From Herminiimonas fonticola (GTDB lineage: Bacteria; Pseudomonadota; Gammaproteobacteria; Burkholderiales; Burkholderiaceae_D): a stretch of DNA of 64,000 nucleotides. Every line of letters begins with the position of its first letter. The stretch's first letter is position 1. The stretch is from positions 124,001-188,000 of the forward strand of contig NZ_PTLZ01000004.1 in NCBI RefSeq assembly GCF_003293745.1, in the 5' to 3' direction. Positions 5,541 to 46,451 of this stretch are shown here, piece after piece. The notes beneath the pieces were generated by a model. The model saw only the letters and a list, made by a program, of their open reading frames with translations, ran no database searches and was not told the origin of the DNA. The position numbers were made by a program, and so were the translations under genes.

Positions 5541-6149
5541 TCAGATCTTCCCTTGATGCTTCAATCGACTTAACGTTTCCGGTGATAAATTGAGATAGGA
5601 CGCTAATTCTTTTTTTGGAATGCGATCAAAGAGATCTTGATGTTTGCGTATGAAGCGTTGTACGCGGCCTGGCGCATCCAGCAAATGCAGTGTAATAGTG
5701 TGGGCCATGATTTCACTCATCAGATGCATCACGTCATATTCAAATGCTTGTTTGACATGCTCATGTTTTTCCATGAATGCAATCCATTGCAGCAAAGGTA
5801 ATTTCACGACGCGCGCTTTGGTTACGCAGATAATGCTGTAAGGAGTCGGTGTTTTAAGGCGCCATGCGGCATAACTGGTTTCCATGCTGCGTTCATCTGC
5901 AAAGCGTAGAATCATTTCCTTGGCTTGTTGGTTGGTAACCACTCGCTTCAAGATGCCGTCAAGAATGAAGTATTGCTCCATTTCATGTACGCCTTGATGC
6001 AGCAAAAAATCGCCTTTGGGGCAATCCACCACGACTAGATGTGGTTCCAGCTCAGCCCATTCGCTATCTGTCATTTCTTTTAAGACAACATTTTGCTTGA
6101 GCTGAACGCGAATTACATTTCGTTCTGGATGGTTATCAACAGTCGGCAT
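5541..6149 (-). CDS. Crp/Fnr-family transcriptional regulator, likely regulator of the oxalate genes
   Basis: The protein has 202 residues, short for the family. Residues about 20-125 form the cNMP-binding-like beta barrel (PKGDFLLHQG at 45-54, YFILDGILKRV at 60-70), then a dimerisation helix and a C-terminal helix-turn-helix (RIPKKELASYLNLSPETLSRLKHQ, about 176-199). The recognition helix carries E191-x-x-S194-R195, the pattern by which E. coli Fnr (E209, S212, R213) reads TTGA half-sites. It has only two cysteines, C43 and C108, and no N-terminal cluster, so it is not an oxygen-sensing Fnr of the [4Fe-4S] type. The gene is divergent from oxc. The TTGACCGGGGTCAA site lies 62 bp upstream of its own start, so it could control both genes. 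The signal it senses is unknown. Confidence 0.85.
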   Translation of the reverse strand: MPTVDNHPERNVIRVQLKQNVVLKEMTDSEWAELEPHLVVVDCPKGDFLLHQGVHEMEQYFILDGILKRVVTNQQAKEMILRFADERSMETSYAAWRLKTPTPYSIICVTKARVVKLPLLQWIAFMEKHEHVKQAFEYDVMHLMSEIMAHTITLHLLDAPGRVQRFIRKHQDLFDRIPKKELASYLNLSPETLSRLKHQGKI

Positions 6150-6210
6150 TTACAAGGGAAAAGATATAAGAGACAGAAGGGTGAGTGGGGCTAATATCAT
6201 GCGATGAAAA

Positions 6211-6224
6211 TTGACCGGGGTCAA
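6211..6224 (+). promoter_or_regulatory. Crp/Fnr-type operator of the oxc promoter
   Basis: A perfect TTGAC-CGGG-GTCAA palindrome. The -10 TATGAT at 6248-6253 is centred 33 bp downstream, which puts the site at about -41.5 from a start near 6259. This is the class II position used by Fnr-type activators. There is no good -35 box, as expected for an activator-dependent promoter. Confidence 0.75.
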
Positions 6225-6294
6225 TGATAGAAGCGCGGACAGATCGATATGATACGCCCACTTGAATAGGCATGCGCAAAAGCGTATGACTAAG

Positions 6295-6335
6295 GGTATC
6301 TCTAAAAATCATCCCATCTGATTTTTAGAGGTGCC
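6295..6335 (+). other. Conserved hairpin in the oxc leader
   Basis: CTCTAAAAATCA (6300-6311) pairs with TGATTTTTAGAG (6319-6330). The stem extends outward to about 16-17 bp with GGTAT/GTGCC, using two G-U pairs. A sister structure lies at 10034-10073 before frc2, with a compensating base change. It has no T run and lies 84 bp before the oxc start codon. Role unknown. Confidence 0.6.
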
Positions 6336-6419
6336 TTGCAAGTAATAATGGCCGTCAAAAGTGCGGCATTGAATGGCACTGAGCAACGTTGCTCGACCTT
6401 AATCGAAAGAGAATTCATC

Positions 6420-8135
6420 ATGAGTAATGCGACAGCAGCAGTAATACCAGAAGGCGTAGAGCTGACCGACGGTTTCCATCTTTTAATGGAATCGCTGGAA
6501 ATGAACGGCATCACCAACATCTACGGTTTGCTCGGTATTCCAGTTACGGAAATCGGCCGTATGTGGCAAGCACGTGGTAACAAGTTCTTCAGCTTCCGCA
6601 ACGAACAAAATGCAGGTTATGCAGCATCGGTTGCTGGTTACTTGACCAAAAAACCTGGCGTTTGCGTGACCGTTTCCGCTCCAGGTTTCTTGAATGGTTT
6701 GACCGCACTGGCTAACGCCACCACAAACTGCTTCCCAATGATCTTGATCTCGGGTTCGTCCGAGCGTGAAATCGTCGATCTGCAACAAGGTGATTACGAA
6801 GAGATGGATCAGTTGAACATCGCTCGTCCACATTGCAAAGCTTCTTTCCGTATCAACCGTACTGAAGACATCGGCGTTGCTGTTGTCCGCGCTATCCGCA
6901 CAGCATTGTCGGGTCGTCCAGGCGGCGTGTATCTGGACATCCCAGCACGTCTGTTCAGCACAGTAATGAGCGCAGAAGAAGGCGCGAAAACTCTGTTCGT
7001 TCCAGTTGATCCAGCTCCAGAACAAATCCCAGGCCCATCGGCTGTTGCTCGCGCTGTTGAATTGATCAAAGGCGCTAAAAAGCCATTGATCTTACTCGGC
7101 AAAGGCGCTGCATACGCACAATGCGACGCAGACATCAAAGCACTGATCGAAGAAACCGGTATTCCATTCACACCGATGTCGATGGCAAAAGGTCTGGTCT
7201 CCGATACACATCCACAATGTGCAGCTGCTGCTCGTTCGATGGTATTGCAAGAGTCCGACGTTGTTGTTCTGATTGGCGCTCGTCTGAACTGGTTGCTGGC
7301 GCACGGCAAAGGCAAAACCTGGGGCGTTGCGAAGAAATTCGTGCAAATCGACATCCAGGCTAACGAAATGGACAGCAACGTACCTATCGCTGCACCATTG
7401 GTTGGTGACGTCGCTTCGTGCGTCAACGCATTGCGCGCTGGCCTGAAAGGCATGACCAAGCCAACCGAATGGATGGGCGCTATCGCTGAACGCGTTACGA
7501 CCACCAAAGGCAAACTGGCTAGCAAATTGACCGCAGCAACTCCGGTTATGAACTACTTCAACTCGCTCGGTGCAATCCGTGATGTATTGAAAAACTACCC
7601 AGACATCACTCTGGTTAACGAAGGTGCAAACACCCTCGATAACGCACGTATGGTCATCGACCAATACTTGCCACGTAAACGTGTAGACACGGGTACATGG
7701 GGCGTTATGGGTATCGGTATGGGTTCGGCTGTTGCTGCAGCTGTTGAAACAGGCAAGCCAGTCGTTGCAATTTGCGGCGATAGCGCATTCGGTTTCAGCG
7801 CAATGGAATACGAAACAATCACCCGTTACAACCTGCCAGTAACTGTGATCATCATGAACAACGGTGGTATCTACCGCGGTGACGAAGCAAATCCAGAACA
7901 CCAATTCTCGTGCATGTTGTTCAACCCGAACACCAAGTACGATCAATTCAGCGTTGCTCTGGGTGGCGAAGGCGTTCGCGCTGAAACTCCAGAACAACTG
8001 GCTAAAGCGTTGGAAGCTTCCCTGAAATCGGGCAAGCCAACCATCATCGATGCAATCATCGATCCAGCAGCTGGTGTTGAATCGGGTCGTATCGGTAACC
8101 TGAACATCGTTTCGACGATCGGTAAAAAGAAGTAA
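6420..8135 (+). CDS. oxc: Oxalyl-CoA decarboxylase
   Basis: The protein has 571 residues (O. formigenes Oxc has 568). It is a thiamine-diphosphate enzyme that decarboxylates oxalyl-CoA to formyl-CoA and CO2. The order is N-terminal PYR domain with the catalytic glutamate in [12 protein letters not shown] (E62), the Oxc-type motif GDYEEMDQ (Y126, E127) near the active site, a central domain, and the C-terminal PP domain with the ThDP/Mg motif starting at [13 protein letters not shown] and ending in NN. The ATG at 6420 is chosen over an in-frame TTG 84 bp upstream because it follows GAAAGAGA and gives the family's usual N-terminus. Expression probably depends on the operator at 6211. Two hairpins follow the stop. 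Confidence 0.95.
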
Positions 8136-8145
8136 TACTGGGTGA

Positions 8146-8206
8146 GATCATGACGCCAGTCATGATCAAACTTGGTGGCACGATCGAGTAGTTTTCGGTC
8201 GTGCCA
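8146..8206 (+). terminator. Two consecutive hairpins after oxc
   Basis: GATCATGAC/GTCATGATC (8146-8167, 4-nt loop) and TGGCACGATCGA/TCGGTCGTGCCA (8176-8206, one G-U pair) are strong stems but neither has a T run. They may be an end-processing site or a Rho-assisted terminator. Confidence 0.5.
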
Positions 8207-8211
8207 TGTAC

Positions 8212-8241
8212 TTGACACTGTTCAGGCTGCGGCACTAGACT
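8212..8241 (+). promoter_or_regulatory. Possible sigma-70 promoter for frc
   Basis: A consensus -35 TTGACA (8212-8217) is followed after 18 bp by a weak -10 TAGACT (8236-8241). No TTGAY-N4-GTCAA site lies here, so this copy of frc may be controlled differently from oxc and frc2. Confidence 0.4.
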
Positions 8242-8298
8242 AGCGTGTTCAGAACTCCAAGCTGTATTGGAATATAGTCATGTAAAAATGGCGCAATT

Positions 8299-8327
8299 CC
8301 ACCAAGATTTTTCTGGGTGGTTTTTTT
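8299..8327 (+). terminator. Terminator-like hairpin inside the oxc-frc spacer
   Basis: CCACC and GGTGG pair, with AGA/TCT continuing the stem, and are followed by seven T. The hairpin lies between the candidate frc promoter and frc itself. It may simply end oxc transcription or act as a leader attenuator. Confidence 0.6.
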
Positions 8328-8329
8328 AC

Positions 8330-8361
8330 TTCCTGAAGCCCAAGTATGTTGGTTTCAGGAA
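8330..8361 (+). other. Hairpin just upstream of the frc ribosome binding site
   Basis: TTCCTGAA pairs with TTCAGGAA, with an inner CCAA/TTGG stem. It directly follows the terminator-like hairpin and ends about 20 nt before AAGGAAA, the frc ribosome binding site. Confidence 0.5.
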
Positions 8362-8396
8362 TCAAGTTAAACGATTGATAAGGAAATCTACCGATC

Positions 8397-9656
8397 ATGA
8401 GTCAAAATTTACCATTAGCAGGTATTAAGATTATCGATTTCACACACGTACAAGCTGGTCCAGCATGTACACAGTTGCTGGCATGGTTCGGCGCTGATGT
8501 GATCAAAGTTGAACGTCCAGGTTCCGGCGACGTGACACGTAGCCAGTTGCGCGACATCCCTGATGCCGATGCTCTGTACTTCACAATGCTGAACAGCAAC
8601 AAGCGTTCGCTGACTCTGGATACCAAAACTCCAGCAGGTAAAGAAGTTCTGGAAAAAATGATCAAAGAATCCGACGTTATGGTTGAGAACTTTGGTCCTG
8701 GCGCTTTGGATCGTATGGGCTTTTCTTGGGCGCGTATCCAAGAACTGAACCCAGGCATGATCTTGGCATCGGTTAAAGGTTTCTCCGATGGTCACCACTA
8801 CGAAGACTTGAAAGTCTACGAAAACGTCGCACAATGCGCCGGCGGTGCTGCTTCGACAACCGGTTTCTGGGACGGCCCACCAACTGTTTCTGCAGCTGCT
8901 TTGGGTGATTCCAACACAGGTATGCATTTGGCAATCGGTATCTTGACAGCCATCATGGGTCGTCAAAAAACTGGCAAAGGCCAAAAAGTTGCTGTTTCGA
9001 TGCAAGATGCTGTTTTGAATCTGTGCCGCGTCAAACTGCGCGATCAACAACGTTTGGACAAACTGGGCTTCCTGAAAGAATACCCACAATACCCACACGG
9101 CACATTCACCGACGTCGTGCCACGTGGTGGTAACGCAGGTGGTGGCGGTCAACCAGGTTGGGTTCTGAAATGTAAAGGTTGGGAAACCGACCCTAACGCG
9201 TACATCTACTTCACCGTGCAAGATCACGCATGGCCACCAATCTGTAAAGCATTGGGCCGTGAAGAGTGGATCGATGATCCTGCGTACAACACACCTGACG
9301 CACGCCAAGACAAGATTTTCGATATTTTCGCGACTATCGAAGAATGGCTGAAAGACAAAACCAAGTTCGAAGCAGTTGATTACTTGCGTAAATTTGACAT
9401 CCCATGCGCACCAGTACTGTCGATGAAAGAATTGGCAAATGACGAATCCCTGCGTAAGAGCGGTTCTATCGTTGAAGTTGAGCACAAAGGCCGTGGTGAC
9501 AAATACCTGACCGTTGGTAGCCCAATCAAATTCTCCGACATGACACCAAACATCGTTGCTTCCCCATTGTTGGGTGAGCACACAGATGAAGTTTTGGCTG
9601 GCTTGGGTTATACCAAAGAGCAAATCGCTGCATTGCACACCGCAAAAGCAGTGTAA
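8397..9656 (+). CDS. frc: Formyl-CoA:oxalate CoA-transferase (copy 1)
   Basis: The protein has 419 residues (O. formigenes Frc has 428). It is a class III CoA-transferase that moves CoA from formyl-CoA to oxalate, giving oxalyl-CoA for Oxc and free formate. It starts with the family's [28 protein letters not shown]. The catalytic aspartate lies in [14 protein letters not shown] (D171; D169 in O. formigenes). The glycine loop that closes over the active site is GGGGQP at 248-253. AAGGAAA lies before the ATG at 8397. It lies downstream of oxc but is separated from it by 261 bp holding hairpins and a candidate promoter. It is closely similar to the second copy at 10335. Confidence 0.93.
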
Positions 9657-9685
9657 TAAAACAGCGAGTTGTATCAGCTTGTAAG

Positions 9686-9715
9686 AAACGGCGCCTTAGG
9701 GTGCCGTTTTTTTTT
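9686..9715 (+). terminator. Rho-independent terminator of frc copy 1
   Basis: AAACGGC pairs with GCCGTTT, with a GC-rich inner part, and is followed by a long T run. Confidence 0.88.
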
Positions 9716-9936
9716 CGTCTCGTTTTCTGTTGATGCGGCATGCAGAGGCTATGCGACAGGGCTGGATGCAGGGTGGGTGGCAGGTGCTATAGTGGCAAAC
9801 CTAACAGTCGCAGAACCTGGTTGCAGATATGTAGAAGAGTGCACGATATTATTTTGCTGCCTGTGTGCAATTGCTGCTCTGCAGCAGTCATTCGAATGCG
9901 CGGCAGAGGGGAAGTCTGTTGCCGGCAAGAGAGAGG

Positions 9937-10009
9937 CATGCGATGAAAATTGACCGGGGTCAATGATGGAAGCGCAGGCTGATCGATATGATACGGCCAC
10001 TTGAATAGG
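9937..10009 (+). promoter_or_regulatory. Second copy of the oxc-type promoter, upstream of frc copy 2
   Basis: These 73 bp match 6198-6270 with only five differences, including 31 identical bases around the operator. The operator TTGACCGGGGTCAA is at 9950-9963 and the -10 TATGAT at 9987-9992, with the same 33-bp centre spacing as at oxc. The predicted start is near 9998, giving a leader of more than 330 nt. Confidence 0.75.
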
Positions 10010-10033
10010 TGTGCGTAACAAGGCATATTTAAG

Positions 10034-10073
10034 GGTGGCTTTAAAAATCCTGGATCTGATTTTTAAAGATGCC
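10034..10073 (+). other. Conserved hairpin in the frc copy 2 leader
   Basis: CTTTAAAAATC (10039-10049) pairs with GATTTTTAAAG (10058-10068). Compared with the oxc leader, one C-G pair of the stem is replaced by T-A, with both strands changed, while the loop differs freely. Both hairpins are followed by a conserved TGCCTTGCAAGTAA. The next 200 bases up to 10281 show no gene I can support. Confidence 0.6.
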
Positions 10074-10281
10074 TTGCAAGTAAGAAGGTCAGTAAAACAC
10101 GGTATTACTCCGGTATGGGTAGATGAAAATTGCCGATCATGGTTGACCGCGACACGCTGCAAAGAGCGCGCGGGTTGATCAGGAAAGCGTGCAGCATCTG
10201 CAGAGATCAGCATCTGAATTGTTTGGATGTATGCACCCAATACCATGACTCAAACCATGCACAGATTTTTAGTTAAACATG

Positions 10282-10314
10282 GCGCGAACGGGCATTTGTC
10301 TGCTCGCGTTTTTT
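10282..10314 (+). terminator. Terminator-like hairpin just before frc copy 2
   Basis: GCGCGA/TCGCG closes an imperfect stem followed by six T, ending only about 10 nt before the AGGAG of frc2. In this position it is more likely an attenuator than the end of an upstream gene, because no gene lies upstream in this transcript. Confidence 0.5.
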
Positions 10315-10334: not shown

Positions 10335-11585
10335 ATGAGTAAGGCATTAAGTGGCTATCGCATTCTTGATTTCACACACGTGCAATCAGGTCCGACATGT
10401 ACCCAGTTGCTGGCATGGTTTGGTGCAGATGTAATCAAGGTCGAACGTGCAGGCGAAGGTGATGCCACACGTGGTCAATTGCGTGACATTCCGGAAGCAG
10501 ACAGTCTCTACTTCACGATGCTCAACCACAACAAACGTTCGATTACGCTCGACACTAAAAACCCAAAAGGGAAGCAAGTGCTCGAAACCTTGATCAAGGA
10601 ATGCGACGTACTGGTAGAGAACTTCGCACCTGGCGCGCTGGATCGCATGGGCTTCACATGGGAACGTATCAACGAACTCAACCCGAAAATGGTCGTGGCA
10701 TCGGTCAAAGGTTTTGGTCCTGGCCCATACGAGCACTGCAAAGTGTATGAAAACGTCGCGCAATGCGCTGGCGGCTCTGCCTCGACGACAGGTTTTGATG
10801 ATGGCCCGCCAATGGTCACCGGCGCGCAAATCGGCGATAGCGGTACCGGCTTGCACCTTGCGCTCGGCATTCTCGCTGCATTGTTGCAGCGTCAGACAAG
10901 TGGTCGTGGCCAAAAAGTTTTGGCGCCTATGCAAGATGCCGTGTTGAATCTGTGCCGCGTCAAGCTGCGCGATCAGCAGCGTCTGGAACGCACCGGCGTC
11001 ATGAAGGAATATCCACAATACCCGGATACTCCTTTTGGTGATTCCGTGCCACGCGCAGGCAATGCTTCCGGTGGTGGTCAGCCTGGTTCCATCCTGAAAT
11101 GCAAAGGCTGGGAAACAGATCCAAACGCATACATTTACTTCGTCAATCAAGGTGCCGTCTGGGATTCAGTCTGCAAGGTAATTGGCAAAGAGGAGTGGCT
11201 TGCTGATCCGTCGTTTGCAACGCCTGCATTGCGTGTGAATCATATGAAAAACATCTTCGCTGCTGTCGAAGAATGGACCAAGACCAAAACCAAGTTCGAG
11301 GCAATGGACATTCTCAACAAGTTCGATATCCCTTGCGGTCCGATCTTGTCGATGAAAGAAATCGCTGAAGAGCAATCGTTGCGCGACACCGGTACGATCG
11401 TTGAAGTTGATCATCCAGTGCGCGGCAAATATCTGACAGTCGGTAACCCGATTAAATTGTCGGACAGCCCAACCGATGTGACGCGTTCGCCATTACTCGG
11501 CGAGCATACTGAAGAAGTGCTGGGTCAACTTGGTTACAGCGCAGAGCAAATTGCTGACTTGCGTAAAGACGGTGTGATTTCGTAA
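10335..11585 (+). CDS. Formyl-CoA:oxalate CoA-transferase (copy 2)
   Basis: The protein has 416 residues and is very similar to copy 1 along its whole length. It keeps the active-site aspartate ([16 protein letters not shown]) and the glycine loop ([10 protein letters not shown]), with one glycine replaced by serine relative to copy 1. It is therefore expected to be an active class III CoA-transferase, but could prefer another acyl donor or acceptor. The ATG at 10335 is chosen over a TTG one codon earlier because AGGAG at 10324-10328 is well spaced. It has its own oxc-type promoter, a long leader and a strong terminator, so it is a single-gene unit. The DNA of the two copies differs widely at third positions, which argues against very recent duplication. 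Confidence 0.88.
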
Positions 11586-11646: not shown

Positions 11647-11905
11647 ATTTGTCGATACTCATTGCATGGCGAGAACGGGCTGCGTGAAAGTAATTCCTCT
11701 CCAATGCATATGCTTAATTCAGCTAGAGTGCGAAGCGCGCCTCTAATAGGCAGTATCAAGGATTTGGGATAGCATTGCAGACGGACATCAAGATGCGCGC
11801 CAAATGAGAATGATTCTTTTTACCGAGGAATTGCGGGTAGAAGACGGATTTTGTAATTGTTTTAGGTTATCCAATACGCATATGTACTAAAGATCATGTG
11901 GAAAA

Positions 11906-11948
11906 TTGATCTCGGTCAATGCTGAAAGTGGGGGCGCGTCGATAAGAT
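11906..11948 (+). promoter_or_regulatory. Crp/Fnr-type operator and promoter of the orphan binding-protein gene
   Basis: The operator TTGATCTCGGTCAA (11906-11919) has one Fnr-like TTGAT and one GTCAA half-site. The -10 TAAGAT (11943-11948) is centred exactly 33 bp downstream, as at oxc and frc2, giving a predicted start near 11954. Confidence 0.7.
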
Positions 11949-12017
11949 ACGCGCACCTGAAGAAGTCTAAGTTATGCTAAAAAAAGCATATATATAGTTT
12001 TTCTGAGGAGGCGATTG

Positions 12018-46212: not shown

Positions 46213-46344
46213 CTGCAGTACGGAAATACGTCGGGCAACAAAAAACCCGCGCTCTCGTGAGAGGAACGCGGGTTTATGCATTTCTTGTTCTTGGTGGTGA
46301 TAGGTGGATTTGAACCACCGACCCCAGCATTATGAGTGCTGTGC
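46213..46344. repeat. attL: left 132-bp direct repeat of the tRNA-Met island
   Basis: These 132 bp are identical to 59373-59504. The repeat holds the tRNA terminator hairpin and the 3' 53 nt of a tRNA-Met gene. Identity breaks at the same base on each side, so the two copies mark the ends of an inserted element with a period of 13,160 bp. Confidence 0.92.
46292..46344 (-). pseudogene. 3' fragment of tRNA-Met left by island insertion
   Basis: It contains the anticodon arm, T arm, acceptor 3' strand and encoded CCA, but lacks the first 24 nt. After 46344 the sequence is island DNA. It cannot fold into a complete tRNA. Confidence 0.9.
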
Positions 46345-46451
46345 CATAGCGTGTGAGCGATTGAAATAATCCATTTAAATCAATAGCTTGCGCGGAACGC
46401 TCCGCTTTCCCAGTATGTTTGCTCAACTCTATATCAACTGGCTGATTATAG

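Follow-up and report, generated by a model that had tools for sequence, protein, structure and literature searches.

A structured leader RNA very probably precedes the oxalate genes oxc and frc2 of Herminiimonas fonticola

The stretch of DNA analysed here, referred to as the window, comprises 64,000 nt of the Herminiimonas fonticola contig NZ_PTLZ01000004.1 (positions 124,001-188,000), and all coordinates are positions in this window. It carries the oxalate-breakdown genes oxc, frc1 and frc2. Both oxc and frc2 are preceded by a leader that is predicted to fold into a three-way junction of the helices P1, P2 and P3, and this leader looks like a new small RNA element, namely a structured 5' leader. 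The genes and leader features are the following.

6260..6343, plus strand: three-way-junction leader RNA of oxc, with P1 (6260-6264/6339-6343), P2 (6267-6277/6282-6292) and P3 (6293-6311/6319-6337)
6344..6419, plus strand: remainder of the oxc leader, with two more small hairpins and then the ribosome-binding site
6420..8135, plus strand: oxc, oxalyl-CoA decarboxylase (TIGR03254, 878.6 bits, cut-off 739.4)
8397-9656: frc1, formyl-CoA transferase
9999..10081, plus strand: second copy of the three-way-junction leader RNA, before frc2, recognised by its folds and by the covariance model R1 described below (90.2 bits, as a member of the training set)
10281..10314, plus strand: terminator-like hairpin and U run of the frc2 leader, immediately followed by the ribosome-binding site
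10335..11585, plus strand: frc2, second formyl-CoA transferase (TIGR03253, 716.7 bits, cut-off 504.2)

The original prediction, made from the letters of the window, described a duplicated module consisting of a 73-base block, a diverged spacer, a hairpin and a common motif. The two blocks (6198-6270 before oxc and 9937-10009 before frc2) do differ at five of 73 positions on recounting, and a hairpin follows each of them. The hairpin of the oxc leader is longer than had been claimed, with 19 pairs (6293-6311 with 6319-6337; z-score -5.5, 0 of 200 shuffles as good), and that of the frc2 copy has 11 + 5 pairs around an internal loop (z-score -2.7, 2 of 200 shuffles as good). The common motif TGCCTTGCAAGTAA stands directly after both hairpins. 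The description of the module itself has to be amended: the spacer is indeed diverged, but it corresponds to a second hairpin, P2, and the long hairpin is one arm, P3, of a three-way junction. Its helix P1 is ACUUG/CAAGU, the CAAGT after P3 being able to pair with the ACTTG that ends the 73-base block. When single leaders of 105 bases were folded, 11 of the 13 oxc leaders of the genus (Herminiimonas/Oxalicibacterium, 13 genomes compared) formed P1 exactly as ACUUG/CAAGU beside P3. The two small hairpins of 6344..6419 (at 6350-6400) appear in the folds of all 13 genus oxc leaders and are not clear in three leaders from a sister genus. In the second of them (TGAGCAACGTTGCTC in the window) letters have changed in relatives, for example in L005, yet the pairing is kept. 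A pairing of P3 with the Shine-Dalgarno sequence was considered and rejected, as by eye it is not conserved in the frc2 copy.

For the analysis of covariation, alignment A1 and model R1 were built from 16 of 23 folded leaders; L009, L015, L022, L023, L025, L026 and L027 were not used, and L016-L019 and L028-L030 had already been set aside ahead of the folding. In the 16 sequences, 92.7% of the cells are paired, compared with 31-50% when the partners are slid, and nine pairs have changed on both sides. One of these sites had already been noticed as a C-G pair replaced by T-A between the two copies: it is pair 47/74 of A1, which is CG in 14 of the 16 sequences, UA only in the frc2 copy of the window, and unpaired in the remaining one. 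Given A1 and no structure, RNAalifold recovered P1 and 18 of the 19 pairs of P3; it also gave three P2 pairs, in a register that differs from the proposed P2. A further alignment, A4, retained 27 of 47 matches, all on the sense strand (22 from the genus and five others); here 657 of 720 cells in the sense rows of the 22 genus leaders are paired, in an alignment that is fitted to the model and therefore leans towards the structure.

Further evidence comes from parsimony on the oxc gene tree, in which the 13 oxc copies were analysed with one reconstruction per pair and 200 within-helix permutations as the control. Five double events were counted against a control mean of 0.82 (the highest value in the 200 permutations being 4), together with 16 single events (control mean 6.4) and 11 breaking events (control mean 29.3). 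P3 accounts for three double and two breaking events. P2 shows two double and nine breaking events, with 85.4% of its cells paired, and so has weaker support. Because double changes that keep the pairing exceed the permuted controls, the oxc/frc2 leader is very probably a real structured RNA maintained by selection. The proposal that this leader is under structural constraint is therefore borne out by homologous leaders, clearly for P3 and less so for P2.

The pattern of conservation bears on the possibility that the leader is a metabolite riboswitch, whose junction would bind oxalate, oxalyl-CoA, formyl-CoA, formate or CoA and control oxc and frc2. Aptamers of the thiamine pyrophosphate (TPP) and purine riboswitches are built on three-way junctions, and the present leader resembles them in having a closing helix P1 and two arms in the 5' untranslated region (UTR) of metabolic genes. 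The element also stands before two enzymes of one pathway and has a compact junction fold, downstream of its frc2 copy a conserved terminator-like hairpin immediately precedes the ribosome-binding site, and the length dependence of P1 described below would fit a switching fold. In contrast to those aptamers, however, the leader has few unpaired junction bases and no conserved unpaired core. Within the element, conservation in the 13 oxc leaders is 0.91 for paired and 0.75 for unpaired columns, which is the reverse of what is expected of an aptamer; in all 22 genus leaders the values are 0.82 and 0.65, and neither set contains a highly conserved unpaired core of the kind that binds a ligand. 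Nor is a shared expression platform apparent, the oxc leader showing no U-run terminator; no conserved antiterminator was found, and the terminator-like hairpin is kept in frc2 leaders that have no junction (L064, L065 and L066). The leader matched no Rfam family at the gathering level; at permissive thresholds the only match was isrB on the other strand, with 16.8 bits where 35 are needed. On this evidence a riboswitch appears unlikely.

The number of copies in the genome is informative about a different explanation, in which the inverted repeat acts as DNA, either as a second operator or as a mobile or repetitive extragenic palindromic (REP)-like repeat. Palindromes are common as operators. 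The arm letters, on the other hand, change in a compensated way, and P1 and P2 would be left unexplained. In the H. fonticola genome itself (3.1 Mb, 11 contigs), R1 matched at just two places and nowhere else, so that the many copies expected of a REP-like repeat are absent; each place also gave a weaker match on the opposite strand, as the long hairpin would produce. A plasmid collection gave no match. We regard this explanation as highly improbable.

A covariance-model search of relatives had been suggested as a check, and R1 finds the element before oxc in all 13 genomes of the genus, 12 of these leaders being members of the training set. In each case it belongs to the 5' UTR of oxc. Second copies on the sense strand, at E 4.3e-4 or better, are present in nine of the 13 genomes. 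A search of 392 genomes of the family gave matches at E 0.1 or better in 18, of which five lie outside the genus. When these five were checked by eye, only the match in G325 was a true oxc leader with the promoter; those in G068, G120, G231 and G384 were rejected, their loci not being oxc leaders with the promoter. Two more leaders from the sister genus to which G325 belongs (in G320 and G340) were found via the promoter. In all three sister-genus leaders CAAGT follows a P3 that is short or absent, and two of these leaders have ACTTG at the start. P1 is recognisable there by its letters only, because the predicted pairing of the 5' end is unstable in these leaders (in L176 it ranges from 0.23 to 0.93 depending on length). 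Judged from these sequences, traces of the leader RNA occur in one sister genus. Homologous leader sequence is present in G033 and G120, where R1 scores it weakly (17.7 and 17.0 bits) and the first 110 bases contain no CAAGT. In an order-level search of 399 genomes, R1 gave three weak matches outside the H. fonticola genome (E 1e-4 to 5e-3), one of which is a bare hairpin matched on both strands.

The leader begins at the end of a promoter, the parts of which are listed here together with a third promoter copy and the genes next to the promoters.

5541..6149, minus strand: gene for a CRP/FNR-like regulator of 202 amino acids with a cyclic nucleoside monophosphate-binding domain (Pfam PF00027, E 2.8e-07), divergent to oxc
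6211..6224, no strand: palindrome TTGACCGGGGTCAA of the oxc promoter, centred 42.5 bases upstream of the seventh base past the -10 hexamer
6248..6253, plus strand: -10 hexamer TATGAT of the oxc promoter; the spacing predicts a transcription start at 6259/6260
9950..9963, no strand: palindrome TTGACCGGGGTCAA of the frc2 promoter
9987..9992, plus strand: -10 hexamer TATGAT of the frc2 promoter, with a predicted transcription start at 9999
11902..11955, plus strand: third, diverged promoter copy, with TTGATCTCGGTCAA (11906-11919) and TAAGAT (11943-11948), before the ABC-transporter binding-protein gene
At 12015: ABC-transporter binding-protein gene (Pfam PF13458), downstream of frc2

Both 73-base blocks contain the palindrome TTGACCGGGGTCAA (TTGACC-NN-GGTCAA), a TATGAT -10 box at fixed spacing and a terminal ACTTGAATAGG. 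By these sequence features, the blocks are a promoter of the type that CRP/FNR-type regulators activate, joined to a structured 5' leader. Measured from the palindrome centre to the seventh base downstream of the -10 hexamer, the distance is 42.5 for 36 and 41.5 for one (L030) of 37 leaders; no value was obtained for L182, L187, L190 and L018, nor for L185, the sequence of which was too short. The palindrome is thus centred near -41.5 relative to a predicted +1, as in class II CRP/FNR-activated promoters, which the blocks resemble in their TTGA...TCAA palindrome about 42 bases before the predicted start, their -10 box and the divergent CRP/FNR-like gene. The product of this gene is a candidate for binding the promoter palindromes. 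A separate DNA-binding domain was absent from its Pfam output; in a comparison with PDB sequences, it matched 3dn7 (E 2.1e-06, residues 27-197) and DNR, 3dkw (E 0.0036, residues 25-199). No paper on this regulator or its signal was among the literature matches listed, which come mostly from non-subscription papers. The third promoter copy has no R1 match, and a small hairpin with an A loop follows it.

The promoter is more widespread than the RNA. A 161-base query matched 18 of 60 genomes, consisting of the 13 genus genomes (H. fonticola included) and five others, and the promoter block alone matched 31 of 392 family genomes, spanning 14 of 44 genera. Duganella aceris and Pseudoduganella umbonata have the palindrome before oxc together with a divergent regulator (73-75% identical), and R1 finds nothing at these loci. 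Since palindrome and regulator can occur before oxc in this way without an R1 match, we infer that the promoter is older than the leader RNA. By a pattern search of the 700 bases upstream, the palindrome was present outside the genus at two of the 12 oxc loci checked (80 were named). The same palindrome stands before a thiamine-diphosphate-enzyme-like gene in L022, L016 and L017 (about 25% identical to oxc in L022 and L017), and this gene is perhaps a further member of the regulon. In L067, a metagenome-assembled genome labelled Rhodocyclaceae, oxc is 85% identical to that of the window despite the label of another family, and neither the palindrome (by pattern) nor the RNA is present; horizontal transfer or a misbinned contig are possible explanations.

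P1 starts at the seventh base after the -10 hexamer, the predicted transcription start, and this coincidence is the starting point for our tentative interpretation of the leader as a clamp on the 5' end that stabilises the mRNA. Transcription would start at A6260 (and A9999), and the first five nucleotides, ACUUG, would form the 5' strand of P1. The other strand, CAAGU, would be made only after the long hairpin P3, and the RNA would fold its own 5' end away once about 90 bases had been made. P2 and P3 would serve mainly as scaffold; such a role would account for loops and stem letters that drift even as pairing is kept. The likely effect would be a longer-lived mRNA for genes needed in growth on oxalate, because a base-paired 5' end hinders 5'-end-dependent decay (RppH, RNase E). 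Such obstruction by a base-paired 5' end is described for B. subtilis RppH in PMC3997798, which also cites work on E. coli, and 5' UTR stem-loops are treated in PMC7509114. The leader is similar to 5' stabilisers of the ompA and papA type in its predicted helix at the mRNA 5' end, its variable loops and its position upstream of a metabolic or abundant gene. It differs from them in being a three-way junction present in two copies in one pathway, where the known type is a simple stem-loop, and in that its 5'-end pairing is predicted and dependent on length.

The folding predictions agree with such a clamp for oxc at the lengths at which it would form. With 90 bases made, the mean predicted pairing of the first five nucleotides is at least 0.93 in all 13 oxc leaders; with 95 bases it is at least 0.90 in 11 of the 13, and in those 11 at most 3 of 100 shuffles are as high. 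The stronger conservation of paired columns within the element likewise speaks for this interpretation. Several observations, however, weigh against it. At 95 bases the pairing is only 0.48 in L012 and 0.70 in L014, in the 105-base folds of L007 and L012 all or part of ACUUG is paired to a CAAG further on, and when 160 bases are folded the pairing of the first five nucleotides drops to 0.40-0.78 in the 13 oxc leaders. P1 is invariant in the oxc copies and therefore shows no covariation (no double and no breaking events), and nine of the 19 P3 pairs never vary, which means more constant letters than a scaffold needs. Outside the oxc leaders of the genus, a value of at least 0.8 at 95 bases was reached in only two of ten second copies, one of three sister-genus leaders, one of nine leaders from the rest of the family and none of the three leaders at third promoters. 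Most second copies lack P1, and G008 keeps the second promoter without a junction (no R1 match). For these reasons the clamp would be our best guess for oxc and a weaker guess for frc2, at somewhat less than an even chance of being right overall.

The long arm could also have a function of its own, with P3 being a processing site for RNase III or the leader giving rise to a small RNA. Many oxc leaders have a nearly perfect duplex of 19 pairs at P3, in favour of this explanation, but P3 is interrupted in the frc2 copy of the window and short or absent in the three sister-genus leaders, which makes such a role quite improbable.

The second copy shows graded decay. A second promoter match at E 0.001 or better occurs in ten of the 13 genus genomes; it precedes frc2 in nine and a thiamine-enzyme-like gene in G001. 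When the ten second copies were folded, P1 (ACUUG/CAAGU) was formed only in that of the window, and a hairpin at P3 in most. CAAGU has been lost in G001, G002, G005 and G011; in the second copies L025, L026 and L027, which have lost it, bases 24-29 take its place as the predicted partner of the 5' end (0.46-0.83, according to the length folded), which speaks for a clamp. In G006 and G012 the promoter before frc2 has diverged further, and R1 finds no match there.

The frc2 leaders also carry the hairpin at 10281..10314, a predicted intrinsic terminator before the start codon. It was found in all 11 of the genomes looked at (of 13), with at least six T in eight bases in nine of them and the U run lost in L020 and L024. 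In the window it appears in a mechanical terminator scan, the total of which (10, with 6.9 expected) is not above chance. The hairpin ends so close to the start codon, about 20 bases before it, that a second promoter would not fit between the two, and frc2 may therefore be attenuated at this hairpin. L064, L065 and L066 have the terminator-like hairpin without an R1 match, and because junction and hairpin each occur without the other, we do not treat them as parts of a single switch. No conserved antiterminator partner of the 5' arm was found in the 11 frc2 leaders; for L063, L025 and L027, in which the promoter was not located, the whole 700-base stretch was folded. In the oxc leaders no U-run terminator was seen.

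These observations concern the further possibility that a regulatory protein or small RNA binds the leader and alters termination or translation, or that the leader belongs to an attenuator in which the frc2 hairpin is the switch. The base of P3 is conserved in letters as well as in pairing, and nine of the 11 frc2 leaders keep a U-run hairpin between promoter and start codon. Against this, no candidate factor was found, hairpin and junction occur independently, and the U run is lost in two of the 11 leaders; such a role has, in our view, a limited chance of being correct. A broader proposal, that the junction senses an oxalate-pathway metabolite or protein and, together with the frc2 hairpin, matches the output of oxc and frc2 to the oxalate flux, is likewise doubtful.

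Among the literature matches listed, mostly from searches of non-subscription papers, none described a leader RNA for oxalate genes (oxc/frc) or for this genus. The folded leader may protect or tune the message of the oxalate-breakdown genes, and since one genome naturally carries two such leaders and relatives show them at different stages of decay, the role of 5'-end pairing could be examined directly here. Together with the candidate CRP/FNR-like regulator, the leader provides a candidate RNA element for the bacterial breakdown of oxalate, which is of interest in connection with kidney-stone probiotics.

Lastly, some features of the surroundings were noted. The region upstream of frc1 (8212-8330) has an apparent promoter of its own (TTGACA, 18 bases, TAGACT) and, after it, a hairpin and T run resembling a terminator; by eye, L063 and L109 look similar in this respect. 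The genes 3' of frc2 read as encoding an ABC-transporter binding protein and putative subunits of an NAD-type formate dehydrogenase. On the minus strand, positions 46302-46361 match part of the tRNA model (positions 7-64 of 71) exactly at the Rfam gathering score (29 bits), and the assignment of this match to a tRNA or a remnant of one is doubtful.

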